This document shows positions 2,946-47,854 of a stretch of 64,000 bases of DNA, piece after piece. Each line of letters opens with the position of its first letter. The stretch's first letter is position 1. Source of the DNA: Pseudobutyrivibrio xylanivorans DSM 14809. GTDB taxonomy: Bacteria > Bacillota > Clostridia > Lachnospirales > Lachnospiraceae. Position numbers and translations under genes: made by a program. A model generated the notes under the pieces. It searched no databases. It worked only from the letters and a program-made list of their open reading frames with translations, and was not told the DNA's origin. The stretch covers positions 106,005 through 170,004 of the forward strand of contig NZ_FQYQ01000005.1 in assembly GCF_900141825.1 (NCBI RefSeq), read 5' to 3'.

Positions 2946-5033
2946 TTAACTAATAGCTGAGTTGTCCCAGTATACTTCCACTTGATCATTCTCATGAAGC
3001 TCATCAGAATAACCACACTTATGTCCGTTAATCTTTGTGATGAGTGGGCGTCCATTGCTTTCATTAGGATCGAAATTTATCACATTGTAAATATCTACAA
3101 AGATATAATCCTTCTTTCCGCAAAGCACTCTCTTCTTACCATTGATAGTGATAGGAAGCTCTGTAGCCTCATCCTTCATCTTGGTGTGAACATCTGTAAT
3201 ATTCTCAGGTGCTACATCAATGTCGTAATCCTCTGGCAAGCCCTCGCCATCCTCTGCAAGATAATCTCCTGCATAAGCTACTGGTGTTGTAGTAGTCCAA
3301 TCGATAACAAAGTTCTCATAAACAAGAGAATCCAAACTAGATGGACGGTTGTTAACCAAAATCTCATAGCGATCATCAATTTTTACATCCATGAACTCTG
3401 CCAACTGGCCAACTGTATAGAATGGACGTGTTTCAATAACATCTCCATCCTTAACTGAATATGTAGGCGGCTCCATAGAACCATTAACCTCAACAAACTT
3501 TGGACACTTAACTCTGCGCCCACAAACTGTGAAGTACAAATACTCTGTAGTGAATTCATCCAAATCAGCGATAGTACCATTTCCACCTGCACCGACTGTA
3601 GATGGAACAAACTCAACATCACAGTTGAACTCCAGTGGAGTATTAATTCCAACTGGCTTTCCATTCATCTTAACAACTGCAGACTCGCCCTCGATACCAC
3701 GAATCATTCGTGAAACGCCATTGACAGTGAAATTGATTTCCTTGCCGCGGCGCGGGAACAATTGGTCAGCAGAGAATCCTGCCTGCATAGCTGCATCCAC
3801 AATTGTAAGCTGTCCATTATCGTAAAGCTTCATCATCTCTCCATTAAAGTGAATCATGATGAAGTTATTCTTTGTCTCATAGTAATTTAGGCAGATACCA
3901 ATTGGAGTAACAAGAAGTGAGTCCTTCTTAATATCCTCCTGCTCGAAAATGATGTTCTTCATGACTTCCTCGCCACGAAGTGCAACACGCTCGTCAACAA
4001 TCTTTAAATCATTGGCAAGTGCCTGGGTGAAGCCATGAATCTTTCCACCTCCACCAACAACGAAAGCTGCTGATACAGATTTGTCGCCATTGAGCTCCTT
4101 AATCTTTGAAGCAACCTCGCTGGCAATCTTTTCCATAATTGGATTTGTGAGCTTGTAAACTTCTTCCGATTTGATGGTGTGGCTGATACCCATGATATCC
4201 TCGTATGTGATGTCTCCACCTTCTGTAGAAGCTCTCTTAATCTGCTCTGCAGTAGCAAAATCAACTAAATATTCATGAACCAGAACCTCAGTAAGCTCAT
4301 CACCTGCCATAGGAATCATACCGTAAGCAATGATGCTTCCGTCTCTTGTGACACAGATATCGGATGTACCTGCGCCCACATCGATTAGAGCAATATTAAG
4401 CATTCTGAAATTCTGTGGAATAGCAACGTTAATAGCTGCAATAGGCTCCAATGTAAGATTGGCAACTGTAAGACCAGCTTTTCCAACAGCAGCATAAAGT
4501 CCATCAACAACATCCTCAGGAAGGAATGTAACGATGATATCCTCACCGATAACATCTGCCTTATGATCCTCAAGAGATGAGAATGGATCTCCATTCAGAT
4601 AATATCTAACCGTAGAATAACCTACGCAGAAGAACTTGTATTTACTGTCTTCGGCACCACCTTTGATCTCCATACCAGCCTTCTCAATTCCAAGCATATC
4701 AAGTGTATGTAAATCCTCGCCTGAAACAACAGTCTCCTCTGGATATTCCAAATCAACATGTGTGGTGATTGTTCGAAGCACACGACCAGCGGCAGCTATA
4801 CAAACCTCTGTAAGTGTGAGGCCTGTCATGCTCTCAAGCTCCTTTTTTACCTCGTCGCATGTAGCGCCAACTCGGCCTATATCGTGAATCTGTCCATCCA
4901 GCATGGCACGAGTGTCGTGTTCACGCAGTGTCTGAGCAATAACGTGAAACACCCCATCCTCAAGATAACCAACTGTGCCAATGACATTTCTTGTACCAAT
5001 ATCCAAGCCAAAAACAATGTCCTTCTTTTCCAT
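2946..5033 (-). CDS. FtsA/PilM-like actin-fold ATPase with long C-terminal extension
   Basis: A 695-residue protein. The N-terminal half is an actin-like ATPase: phosphate-1 loop LDIGTRNVIGTVG near residue 10, phosphate-2 loop IDVGAGTSDIC around residue 215, adenosine motif AAFVVGGGGKIHG around residue 325. The family (FtsA, PilM) recruits division or pilus proteins to the membrane. Ordinary FtsA is about 420 residues; this protein carries about 300 extra C-terminal residues with repeated small beta-rich segments ending in NGRPLITKINGHKCG. Such long FtsA-like proteins occur in Lachnospiraceae. The C-terminal FtsA membrane-targeting helix was not seen. It is not in a ftsAZ cluster, so a role in division is inference. 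Confidence 0.8.
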   Translation of the reverse strand: MEKKDIVFGLDIGTRNVIGTVGYLEDGVFHVIAQTLREHDTRAMLDGQIHDIGRVGATCDEVKKELESMTGLTLTEVCIAAAGRVLRTITTHVDLEYPEETVVSGEDLHTLDMLGIEKAGMEIKGGAEDSKYKFFCVGYSTVRYYLNGDPFSSLEDHKADVIGEDIIVTFLPEDVVDGLYAAVGKAGLTVANLTLEPIAAINVAIPQNFRMLNIALIDVGAGTSDICVTRDGSIIAYGMIPMAGDELTEVLVHEYLVDFATAEQIKRASTEGGDITYEDIMGISHTIKSEEVYKLTNPIMEKIASEVASKIKELNGDKSVSAAFVVGGGGKIHGFTQALANDLKIVDERVALRGEEVMKNIIFEQEDIKKDSLLVTPIGICLNYYETKNNFIMIHFNGEMMKLYDNGQLTIVDAAMQAGFSADQLFPRRGKEINFTVNGVSRMIRGIEGESAVVKMNGKPVGINTPLEFNCDVEFVPSTVGAGGNGTIADLDEFTTEYLYFTVCGRRVKCPKFVEVNGSMEPPTYSVKDGDVIETRPFYTVGQLAEFMDVKIDDRYEILVNNRPSSLDSLVYENFVIDWTTTTPVAYAGDYLAEDGEGLPEDYDIDVAPENITDVHTKMKDEATELPITINGKKRVLCGKKDYIFVDIYNVINFDPNESNGRPLITKINGHKCGYSDELHENDQVEVYWDNSAIS

Positions 5034-5058
5034 AGTAAAAATCCCCTTTAATTATATT

Positions 5059-5108
5059 ACACCTCATCAGTCACCTTCGGTGACAGCTTCCCCTCAAGGG
5101 GAAGCCTT
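5059..5108 (-). repeat. Two-hairpin intergenic repeat, copy 1
   Basis: Between coaE and the FtsA-like gene. Two stems follow each other: GTCACC ttc GGTGAC and GCTTCCCC tcaa GGGGAAGC, preceded by ACACCTCATC. A second copy is at 6677-6725 with different but still paired bases. Similar sequences are familiar as abundant intergenic repeats of gut Clostridia. On the minus strand it could act as a weak terminator or mRNA processing site after coaE. Confidence 0.75.
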
Positions 5109-5699
5109 TTAGCTGAGGATTTCTTTCAATTGCATTAGTGTCTCCTCTTTGCTGCCGCTATTATCTATGACCTTGTCACAGTGCTCTCTAAAACTCTCGT
5201 CAGAACGCTGAACTTTAAAGGTATTTTCAATGCGTTCTTTAGAGTAACCCCTGGATTCCATGAGCCTGATTTTACGAACCTCAGGGCTGGCATAAATATA
5301 CCACATCTCATCCACAAGTTTACCATATCCACATTCTATGAGCAATGCAGCTTCAAAGAAAAAATACTCTATATTGTGCTTTTCTTTTTCCTCTTCTACC
5401 TGATTTAGTACTTCTTTTTCTACAGCAGGATGAACGATGGAGTTTACTCCTCTCAATAGCTCATCATCTGCAAACATGTACTTCGCCATGATAGGTCTGT
5501 CAATTTCTCCTGACGCATCCAAAATAGAGGCAGGCCAATTCAGTGCCACTACCTCATCAAAACACTTATGACCACTTGTCATAAGCTGTGCTGCCACCTC
5601 GTCTGCCAGCAGCACTTTGCAATTAAAGTTTTCTTTTAATAAAGAGAGCACCGTGCTTTTGCCAGCGCCGATGCCCCCTGTAATTCCTATAAATTTCAT
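5109..5699 (-). CDS. coaE: Dephospho-CoA kinase
   Basis: A 196-residue P-loop kinase that phosphorylates the 3'-hydroxyl of the ribose of dephospho-CoA, the last step of coenzyme A synthesis, in the cytoplasm. Walker A motif GGIGAGKS is at residues 8-15; the LLADEVAAQL region and the DEMWYIYASPEVRKIRLMES substrate segment are typical, and the length matches the family. It follows the DUF975 gene by 3 bp, so it is translated from the same message. polA and coaE are often close together in Firmicutes, in agreement with this order. Confidence 0.95.
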   Translation of the reverse strand: MKFIGITGGIGAGKSTVLSLLKENFNCKVLLADEVAAQLMTSGHKCFDEVVALNWPASILDASGEIDRPIMAKYMFADDELLRGVNSIVHPAVEKEVLNQVEEEKEKHNIEYFFFEAALLIECGYGKLVDEMWYIYASPEVRKIRLMESRGYSKERIENTFKVQRSDESFREHCDKVIDNSGSKEETLMQLKEILS

Positions 5700-45778: not shown

Positions 45779-47053
45779 TTAATTTCCGTTATAATTTAAC
45801 CAATCGTTGTATGATTGTACCGGCTGACCTCCCTCTGGGACATCAATTGTTAATGTAACCATTGTAGCACTTTCATTTTCCTCATTCATTGCACCGATGC
45901 TAACAACAGCGTCACCATCCTCATTCATCTCAACTTTACCACCTACAGTATAAACAGTATCATCTGTACCATTTGAATCATATGCATATGACGCAAAAAC
46001 TTTTCCGTTATGATAAACATCAAATGTTTCTGTACCTTCGGTGCATTCTCTACCTATATCCTCTCTATAAAATCTTTCTGTATAAGATGAATCCTCAGTA
46101 GAATAACTAGCAACAGCATCATAAGTGAATACATTTGCCTTATCAGGATCTCCAACATGTGTATAGTATTTAGAGACATTATCTTTAGTCCTATCATAAT
46201 CAGATTCACTTATCCTAATGCTTGCAAATTCAACTGCTGTCTCATCATTATAGTTTTCAGTCTTAGAAATAATCTCACCTGGATTATCATCAGGTGATAT
46301 AGGTGCACGATGTCCGGTGTATAAAGCATATCCTGTAACAGCATCTTCACTGCTACTTGCGTATATATATAATACAACATGTTTTTCATCTTCACTTAGA
46401 CATAACTTTCCTGCTTCTTCTAAGTTGCTATCCTTATAGGTAGTAAGTGTAAAAGTCTCTTCTCCGTTAGAAACAGTTATTGGTTCACCCTGTGCTGCTC
46501 GCTCAGTTGCAACGGCTACTGTTCCGTAGTCCTTTGTACCGAGTAACTTTGCAACCTTAACTACATCCTTTGTAATCTTAATCTCTGGGTTGTAGAAAGG
46601 ATTAATAATATAACCTGCAGCTGTAACTGTTTCAACTGTAGTCAAATCTCTTCCCTGAGCTTTTCCCTCTGTAGCATAATGAACAAAATACTGAACAATA
46701 TTATTACCAAATGCCTCTTTTAAATCTTTATATGCTGCTGCATAAGCTACAGCATCAAAATCAGCATTAACCATTCTTCCTTCAAACAATCCAAGAGTGA
46801 TAAAATGCTCAAACAATCTCTCTGTATCATTTCCATAAAATTCAGCTAAATCAGGATTATCCTTTGCATAAAAATCTGCATCGAACATAGTCTTAATAAT
46901 AGCAATTTCTTCGCTAGTAAGTTTACCATAGTTAACCTGGCTAGGATCCTGAGCCTGTGTTAAACCAGCAGCCTTAACATTTACTGCAGGAGCTGCAACT
47001 GTTCCAACAACTGCTAAAGCCATCATAACTGCTAAAAACTTCTTAACTCTCAT
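45779..47053 (-). CDS. Secreted protein with tandem FDADFY-type repeats
   Basis: A 424-residue exported protein with signal peptide (about 1-28, ends VKAAG). Residues about 57-135 are two tandem ~38-residue repeats: FDADFYAKDNPDLAEFYGND...FEGR and FDAVAYAAAYKDLKEAFGNN...QGRD, a helical motif frequent in Lachnospiraceae surface proteins. The rest (about 150-424) is acidic and rich in Thr/Tyr/Asp with no recognised domain. No LPXTG. Transcribed alone. The repeat array at 47209-47509 lies upstream. Confidence 0.8.
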   Translation of the reverse strand: MRVKKFLAVMMALAVVGTVAAPAVNVKAAGLTQAQDPSQVNYGKLTSEEIAIIKTMFDADFYAKDNPDLAEFYGNDTERLFEHFITLGLFEGRMVNADFDAVAYAAAYKDLKEAFGNNIVQYFVHYATEGKAQGRDLTTVETVTAAGYIINPFYNPEIKITKDVVKVAKLLGTKDYGTVAVATERAAQGEPITVSNGEETFTLTTYKDSNLEEAGKLCLSEDEKHVVLYIYASSSEDAVTGYALYTGHRAPISPDDNPGEIISKTENYNDETAVEFASIRISESDYDRTKDNVSKYYTHVGDPDKANVFTYDAVASYSTEDSSYTERFYREDIGRECTEGTETFDVYHNGKVFASYAYDSNGTDDTVYTVGGKVEMNEDGDAVVSIGAMNEENESATMVTLTIDVPEGGQPVQSYNDWLNYNGN

Positions 47054-47208
47054 CGATATCTTCCTCCTCTGAAAAAAGGTTTTTCAAAACTGAGTTGATA
47101 GTACTCTCCTAATTTTGTTACGTTAATCCATTTCACAATAAAAACACATCTGTTTTATAACGTTTTAATTAGCCAACTTGTGATTTCAATCTTCTTCTGT
47201 TGAGTCTT

Positions 47209-47509
47209 TTATCGCAAGCCAACAAAAAAATAATGCTTAATGGTACTGCCGCGATAAATTCTACTTCATATTGCCTATAATATTATCGCAAGCAAATGAA
47301 AACATAGGCTTTGCAAGAACCCTTGCGATAAAAATCATCAAAATTTTTCAAAAATCTCATTAAAAACAGCCCCAAATATCGATTTTTTATCGCAGCGACT
47401 CCACAAAGACCGCATAGTTTCGTTTATCCGCGATAAAAGACTTCACCATATCTAGTTTTTTCTATCACAAGAAGTCTCTAAAGCTTGAAGTTGCATTGTC
47501 TTGCGATAA
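47209..47509. repeat. Array of four ~49-bp units with TTATCGC/GCGATAA ends
   Basis: Eight copies of a short motif in strictly alternating orientation form four units: 47209-47257, 47283-47331, 47387-47436 and 47462-47509 (49, 49, 50 and 48 bp). The best copy ends TTATCGCAAG...CTTGCGATAA (unit 2, perfect 10-bp arms); unit 4 starts CTATCACAAG. Interiors differ. Gaps between units are 25, 55 and 25 bp. Confidence 0.85.
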
Positions 47510-47562
47510 TCCATTAATTCACTACATCTAAACATGCACAGTGCCAACCACAAAACAAAAAA

Positions 47563-47587
47563 GGACCTGCACCACAAGTACACGTCC
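47563..47587 (-). terminator. Probable terminator
   Basis: GGACGTGTA and TGCAGGTCC pair with one mismatch around a 7-nt loop, then TTTTTTGTTTTG on the minus strand. Possibly the end of the flavodoxin transcript, about 270 bp after its stop. Confidence 0.6.
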
Positions 47588-47854
47588 CAAACAAAATATT
47601 TATAAATTTTATTTCTTACTAAACAGCCATGCAGCCACGCCTGCGCCGAAATACATTTAAGATACTTTCAAGATGGTGGTGATATAAAAGGAGCAATTAG
47701 AACCTGTTCTTTTAAGAAAAAATAGGCTTGTCTTACAGGCTTCAAGCGCAGTGCGTGCATACATTTCGCACATAGACTACCGGCATATCTGAAGCAACTG
47801 CCTCCATCTAATAAGTTTATTCCATATTCTTTGAGTAACTCTACAAACACACCA

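Follow-up and report, generated by a model that had tools for sequence, protein, structure and literature searches.

The window, a stretch of 64,000 nucleotides of Pseudobutyrivibrio xylanivorans DSM 14809 (C56:106005-170004 of G000, the window's own genome), contains a gene-free region in which eight copies of a seven-letter motif alternate in orientation. The question raised by this locus is what such an array is and what acts on it. We consider it moderately probable that its units are targets in a mobile nuclease-repeat system, grouped here as an orphan cluster and recognised by a dimer of the cognate nuclease.

The array in the window and its setting

The features of the locus, in positions of the window, are as follows.

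47209..47257, forward strand: unit 1, 49 bp; half-sites TTATCGC (47209-47215) and GCGATAA (47251-47257); core forward (by eye)
47283..47331, forward strand: unit 2, 49 bp; half-sites 47283-47289 and 47325-47331; core forward (by eye); 25-bp gap after unit 1
47387..47436, reverse strand: unit 3, 50 bp; half-sites 47387-47393 and 47430-47436; core reversed (by eye); 55-bp gap before it
47462..47509, reverse strand: unit 4, 48 bp; degenerate CTATCAC (47462-47468) and exact GCGATAA (47503-47509); core reversed (by eye)
47054..47854, no strand: gene-free region holding the array, between the 424-aa gene and a flavodoxin-like gene (named by eye)
45779..47053, reverse strand: gene for a 424-aa secreted repeat protein, neighbour of the array, with a signal-peptide-like start and 'NPDL' repeats (by eye)

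The first-pass annotation had described a four-unit alternating array. Its unit lengths of 48-50 bp, its gaps of 25, 55 and 25 bp and the strictly alternating orientation of the motifs all stood, but one motif is inexact: seven of the eight are exact TTATCGC or GCGATAA, and the eighth is CTATCAC, with two mismatches. Because the motifs alternate in orientation, CRISPR and tandem repeat were both ruled out, as that annotation had held, and its gene-free region of about 800 bp near a secreted repeat-protein gene was found as described. The 424-aa protein had no Pfam family above the cut-off. Its gene is treated here only as a neighbour of the array.

Exact TTATCGC occurred 15 times in the window versus 5.15 expected, a count reached in none of 100 shuffles, and the alternating-repeat signal was present in only 2 of 48 overlapping 2.6-kb bins, both containing the array. 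The pattern TTATCGC-N(25-50)-GCGATAA gave 8 matches on one strand of the own genome versus 1 for a reversed control (three in the window, three in contig C49 and two overlapping ones in a low-complexity stretch of C13), and the earlier concern that such motif pairs might occur genome-wide at chance level was not borne out.

When 4.2-4.7 kb next to pyrE (named by eye), on the side corresponding to the window, was examined in six relatives, neither the window array nor the 424-aa gene turned up. Scattered one-mismatch motifs near pyrE in the relatives, clustered in G009, were rejected as single-mismatch words within a coding frame. By eye, secreted proteins, at least some with 'NPDL'-type repeats, were observed near orphan TTATCGC arrays in G000, G005 and G009 (window 45779-47053; L138, L144 and L150); the two that were tested had no Pfam family above the cut-off. 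Such proteins may mark a variable genomic region.

Similar arrays and their partner nuclease

The same pattern was matched in 19 of 41 genomes. Units of 49-50 bp were found by eye in seven of these (G000, G002, G005, G009, G010, G015 and G022), whose matches contrast by eye with those in the other 12, apparently isolated words that mostly differ in length. When as many as two mismatches were allowed, 0-32 TTATCGC units per genome were counted in 29 genomes of the genus versus 0-2 for a control pattern; where a genome had few such units, the listed ones often look isolated. An identical unit was present at G010:C1:1516119 and G012:C1:2371201. Similar units thus occur in other genomes of the genus, and the array held up under the first-pass annotation's proposal to look for conservation in relatives. 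The gaps were mostly 24-25 bp in 16 loci fetched around TTATCGC units, and the genes flanking the arrays differ among most of the 16. At one locus (L146:5191-6908, G022:C13), two nearly identical three-unit arrays flank an ABC_trans_CmpB gene (Pfam E 1.6e-43), as if an array had been duplicated with neighbouring DNA or the gene had been caught between arrays.

At four of the 16 array loci (L139, L142, L147 and L148), the array adjoins or brackets a gene whose product, called the nuclease here, is a protein of about 230-260 aa with the motifs RSKSE, PDF and EHFG. No family in Pfam or NCBIfam scored above cut-off for it, and its PHROGs matches were weak (best E 3.4e-4). A profile built from the four proteins detected the nuclease in 25 of 41 genomes, including all but one of the 25 that belong to the genus, and a single genome could contain as many as 11 matches; among the matches listed, the copies are mostly open frames without stops. 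The highest-scoring lineage comprises proteins of G000, G002, G005, G010 and G022, and in each of these genomes TTATCGC-type arrays adjoin at least one side of the gene. The cognate gene of the window's own genome is G000:C40:139709-140413, flanked left and right by degenerate arrays. TTATCGC-like units likewise adjoin the gene of a somewhat more distant relative in G013 (L160, L189). A genome-collection scan with the pattern gave at least 115 stretches, many of them single matches in unrelated taxa, and among the proteins of the stretches listed the nuclease profile matched only in L126.

Three further features were observed. A short ORF, signal-peptide-like by eye, lies between the left array and the own-genome nuclease gene (L187:3346-3466). 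Just left of the window start there is a broken nuclease relative with several stops (G000:C56:104874-105667), around which no array signal was detected (L262). The longest run of the TTATCAA type seen lies by a nuclease in G003 (L188:3052-3829 and 4861-5196), with about 20 alternating copies on one side of the gene, mostly at a 73-bp period.

The association between nuclease and arrays was measured with a statistic (T) that takes the 7-mer with the most adjacent alternating copies 15-70 bp apart, the threshold being three within 1.3 kb. Alternating inverted arrays were present at 60 of 80 nuclease loci of the genus, which form the higher-scoring part of the match list, not a random draw, and include related species, versus 4 of 79 when the longer flanks were scored beyond 1.9 kb (far flanks). 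Each of the 60 positives exceeded all 60 of its Markov resamples. Three of the four positive far flanks carried the motif of the near array and one was of a TATCACA type. A first version of the statistic with a single spacing range, now superseded, had given 26 of 80 near and 3 of 80 far. At control loci, arrays were found beside the recD2-like gene in 1 of 16 (the element itself adjoining) and beside pyrE in 0 of 15. The 20 genus loci under the threshold, among them the own-genome cognate locus (L187, degenerate, T = 2), count against the reading proposed here.

The nuclease was present in 44 of 120 genomes of the family and 34 of 245 of the class (own genome included). Arrays accompanied it at 17 of 29 loci in other genera of the family, two of these positives being reached by 1 of 60 resamples. 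At class level, where 29 of 30 loci were analysed, arrays were found at 10 of the 29, one of them from the window's own genome and six in other families (three strong, T 9-13, and three at T = 3). In other genera, a number of the nuclease genes are only a few hundred bases away from where a contig stops (e.g., G082:C38, G126:C40, G061:C4), as if arrays were breaking the assemblies, and the array counts there may be too low. The position of the arrays relative to the gene varies: upstream of it, downstream of it, or both.

The array motifs are lineage-specific (TTATCGC, TTATCAA, CTGTCAC, GGTATAA, GGATGCA, GGCTGAC, CCACGTA and others). In 63 loci with T of at least 4 and a full-length protein, motifs with at least 6 of 7 letters in common were found in 27 of 45 pairs with N-half identity of at least 0.5, in 16 of 230 pairs at 0.3-0.5 and in 12 of 1678 pairs below 0.3. 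Related nucleases thus have motifs in common across species. A Mantel test of motif similarity against nuclease similarity was matched by none of 500 permutations; the correlation coefficients are modest, 0.17 for the N-half and 0.12 for the C-half, one reason being that the 7-mers of one motif were picked in different registers.

Motif and nuclease also co-occur genome-wide. CTGTCAC units (16 specified bases, up to 2 mismatches) numbered 9, 11, 29, 36 and 46 in five genomes of the genus versus 0-3 in the other 24 and 0-1 for the control, and the CTGTCAC-lineage nuclease (E <= 1e-80) was present in exactly those five. That group had been set before the nuclease result, four genomes from array loci and G401 as a guess from its unit count. 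TTATCGC units numbered 11-32 in the five genomes of their lineage versus 0-11 in the other 24 (p = 3e-4), a grouping that is partly circular because four of the five genomes supplied the profile nucleases, which were chosen for adjoining arrays. With a wider grouping from a single-protein search (E <= 1e-75), there were 8-32 units in 7 genomes versus 0-11 in 22 (p = 7e-5). The unit counts of either motif did not follow the nuclease of the other lineage (p = 0.84 and 0.16). Genomes counted as having no TTATCGC nuclease hold up to 11 TTATCGC-like units, which counts against the reading of nuclease and targets.

The enzyme, the unit and the helical geometry

Conservation was examined in 102 proteins of 220-330 aa, kept from 109; the 66 representatives are stand-alone proteins of 236-316 aa. 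Active-site-like residues are among the invariant ones: W128, R154, S155, K156, E158, Y174, E175, P187, D188, F189, E203, H204, G206, Y213 and E240 were conserved in 100% of the 102 and K220 in 99%, with 14 invariant residues between positions 150 and 240. Mean identity was 0.23 in the N-terminal half versus 0.40 in the C-terminal half. The invariant E158, PD187-188 and E203 may belong to a PD-(D/E)XK signature, with the lysine of ExK absent from its usual position (E203-H204-x-G206), which counts against the reading proposed here, and K220 nearly invariant.

A model of the L126 protein from an eight-sequence alignment was of moderate overall quality (pTM 0.48), with pLDDT mostly 83-91 in the C-terminal domain. 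The modelled C-terminal domain aligned with the catalytic domain of I-Bth0305I (3r3p; Z 9.0, rmsd 2.7, 89 aligned, rank 32, the rows above it including the best-scoring ones, long-helix proteins matching the N-terminal part) and with Bax1 (6p4w; Z 8.9; Foldseek E 1.5e-3, best but marginal). The profile match to T7 endonuclease I, around RS-E / YE / PDF, was weak (E 0.028), and that stretch alone was not significant (i-Evalue 1.4). By the model, the C-terminal domain has a restriction-endonuclease-like core fold. The moderate overall model, the marginal Foldseek E-values and the long-helix proteins heading the structural matches count against the reading proposed here, and for the N-terminal part those matches point to no particular fold.

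The closest known enzymes resemble parts of this one. According to PMC3943268, I-Bth0305I and the other EDxHD enzymes act as dimers on a target of nearly 60 bp; besides the likeness in fold of the C-terminal domain, a dimer target of that size is close to the 49-50 bp unit and by analogy would suit a unit with inverted ends. In contrast to I-Bth0305I, the nuclease described here lies amid several copies of its apparent target, differs in its N-terminal region and is not known to home. T7 endonuclease I is likened to it by the weak profile match and Bax1 by the fold match, whereas here EH-x-G stands in place of ExK, about 130 N-terminal residues are helical and repeats are associated.

The C-terminal nuclease domain is also held in common with the PADLOC candidate PDC-S68, whose C-terminal part matched five proteins with best E-values of 2.8e-21 to 8.8e-28; the PDC-S68 profiles span 1202-1273 positions, whereas the proteins described here stand alone, with arrays. 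The same domain ends long helicase-like proteins, related to PDC-S68, in nine viral-collection contigs (L292-L300); their frames of 747-1353 aa, some cut by contig ends, share only the nuclease domain. These likenesses would fit a defence or addiction function, in which the nuclease attacks motif-bearing DNA in another context and the chromosomal arrays hold or titrate it. Sharing a domain shows no function, however; no array signal was found beside 7 of the long fusion ORFs (a weak test, the flanks being short), and orphan arrays are many, so that we regard this explanation as very improbable.

The units themselves were compared. The first-pass annotation had held that the interiors were not conserved; the reverse was found in 64 oriented units of 49 bp, the only length used, which gave the asymmetric interior consensus TTATCGCAAaccAACGAAaatATGCggnTTnnnAGactTcTTGCGATAA with 11.3 bits over positions 11-39 versus at most 2.4 in 20 interior shuffles. 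The analysis was repeated on 61 distinct units. The oriented TTATCGC units have in common AACGAAaatATGCgg...TT...AG, and CTGTCAC units have a similar core, AACGGAAAATGTGGGTTTG, despite their different outer motif, a similarity reached in none of 2000 column permutations. The outer half-sites therefore vary by nuclease lineage and the asymmetric core is partly kept in these two lineages; a third, with seven units, has a similar core by eye.

The same annotation had also raised short mobile hairpin elements or structured RNAs. Single units of the window can fold (z -0.6 to -3.1 over eight strands, against mononucleotide shuffles), as any sequences with inverted ends would. Pairing and gap tests were run on 77 non-overlapping units, replacing a set of 91 that held out-of-register duplicates. 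Watson-Crick pairing at 16 mirrored positions nowhere exceeded the value expected of independent halves by more than 0.04, and it was clearly under that value at positions 11, 13, 14 and 16. At position 6 the left/right counts were G/C 40, A/C 18, G/T 17 and the compensated A/T only 2. The half-sites thus show no hairpin covariation in the 77 units, and double-stranded DNA sites fit better than RNA. At gathering thresholds, the only Rfam match in the window was a tRNA elsewhere, with nothing at the array. The hairpin or RNA explanation is accordingly given up as highly improbable.

The spacing of the units is helically quantised. Modal periods at 65 loci, several of which rest on one to three intervals, fell at 50-54 bp (23 loci), 62-65 (9), 71-75 (28) and 81-86 (5), with none between these bands, and the best fit was a period of 10.5 bp at phase -0.01, equal to 5, 6, 7 and 8 whole turns. 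When one value per protein cluster was used, random sets as good numbered 1 in 20000 for 25 clusters, 0 for 42 and 19 for 9. The 13 irregular gaps between TTATCGC units (4, 15, 15, 34, 35, 35, 35, 45, 55, 55, 56, 56 and 56 bp) depart from the usual 24-25 bp by close to whole turns (10.5 bp, R = 0.93). The 55-bp gap of the window array is one of them, being the usual 25 or so plus about three turns.

Helical phasing is typical of cooperative binding, and it would also fit a multi-site operator, one of the suggestions of the first-pass annotation, in which the nuclease-like proteins are DNA-binding regulators phased for cooperative binding, the gene-linked arrays are autoregulatory and the orphan arrays, like the one in the window upstream of a secreted-protein gene, control other genes. 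The window array begins 155 bp upstream of a start codon, as an operator might. The placing of arrays on either or both sides of the nuclease gene speaks against this, as do the differing flanking genes at most of the 16 array loci and the failure to see the window array at the matching site in six relatives; the 14 invariant residues would moreover seem unneeded for regulation alone. An operator is therefore judged unlikely.

Long arrays in helical register might also load a nuclease-derived protein that organises or processes the chromosome to the benefit of the host, and open frames in most of the listed nuclease copies agree with such a DNA architecture. Several motif systems per genome with a patchy distribution, and presence or absence at an orthologous site (below), do not, and we consider this role quite improbable.

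Presence and absence, the proposed mechanism and its meaning

Between a gene adjacent to flagellar rod genes and the recD2-like gene (names by eye), G000 and G005 carry an array-nuclease-array cassette. At the orthologous recD2-like site the cassette was present in 2 of 12 genomes and the nuclease absent from 10 of 12. The gap at the site lacking the nuclease was 52-128 bp in G003, G008, G009, G010, G013, G014 and G015, about 150 bp in G012 (by alignment) and 680 bp in G002, and in G011 an unrelated 382-aa ORF lies between. The difference may reflect a gain or a loss. The flanks at this site were too diverged for an exact insertion boundary or a target-site duplication to be delimited, which counts against the reading proposed here. 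The TTATCGC lineage occupies four different places in five genomes.

From these results we infer dimer binding, cleavage and copying by repair, as follows. Each unit consists of two lineage-specific half-sites (here TTATCGCA) in inverted orientation, separated by about four helical turns with the asymmetric core between them, and would be recognised as double-stranded DNA by a dimer of the cognate PD-(D/E)XK-like nuclease, here the product of G000:C40:139709-140413. The period is a whole number of turns, here seven from one unit to the next and ten where the 55-bp gap intervenes, and successive bound dimers would in this way come to lie on one face of the DNA. This binding and ordered assembly is suggested by geometry, specificity and fold resemblance. 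The nuclease may then nick or cut at the units, and break repair or gene conversion may carry units, arrays and the array-nuclease-array cassette into other intergenic sites, so that orphan arrays such as that of the window are left behind; for cutting and repair-copying, the evidence is presence/absence and spread. A nuclease gene amid many of its own targets would need some tolerance, which counts against this reading. Sites for a recombinase or cassette system, as proposed in the first-pass annotation, came nearest among its suggestions, in that the units resemble cognate sites of a DNA-acting enzyme family; the enzyme is a nuclease and not any known recombinase.

The closest known parallel is REPIN/BIME-RAYT (TnpA-REP). 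According to PMC3116915 and PMC8266576, its short intergenic inverted repeats form doublets and clusters, RAYT genes lie beside clusters of their own repeat type, several pairs occur per genome, orphan repeats lie elsewhere and E. coli K12 has about six hundred REPs. Doublets and clusters, an enzyme gene beside its own repeat type, lineage-specific motifs, several pairs per genome and orphan repeats are all found here. The protein whose gene accompanies the repeats is PD-(D/E)XK-like, however, whereas RAYT is an HUH Y1 tyrosine transposase; the half-sites behave as independent double-stranded DNA sites, with no hairpin covariation, and not as hairpin stems; the periods are whole helical turns; and up to tens of units per genome were counted for two motifs, versus the six hundred or so REPs. 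The GTAG-type tetranucleotide of the REP foot was not seen in the TTATCGC or CTGTCAC consensus. A true REPIN-RAYT system is thus extremely improbable, and the best reading is a system like it in logic but unrelated, differing in two defining features, the enzyme class and the hairpin.

Apparently the nuclease-array system is undescribed: no description of the nuclease-array association or of cooperative assembly was found in the open-access library searched. We give about even chances to the wider proposal, namely that these elements form a clade-wide class of bacterial mobile repeat, with dozens of diverging nucleases, private motifs, helically quantised arrays, an ordered dimer filament and cut-and-repair spread. 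If true, it would be a double-stranded DNA counterpart of REPIN-RAYT. The same lifestyle, in which an enzyme and its own dispersed inverted repeats co-evolve, would then have arisen independently twice. It would also provide a fast-evolving natural set of enzyme and target-specificity pairs; with many such pairs and different motifs, the evolution of DNA-binding specificity would be testable from sequence, and the helical quantisation points to a cooperative protein-DNA assembly. The system would then explain otherwise puzzling intergenic arrays in rumen and gut bacteria.
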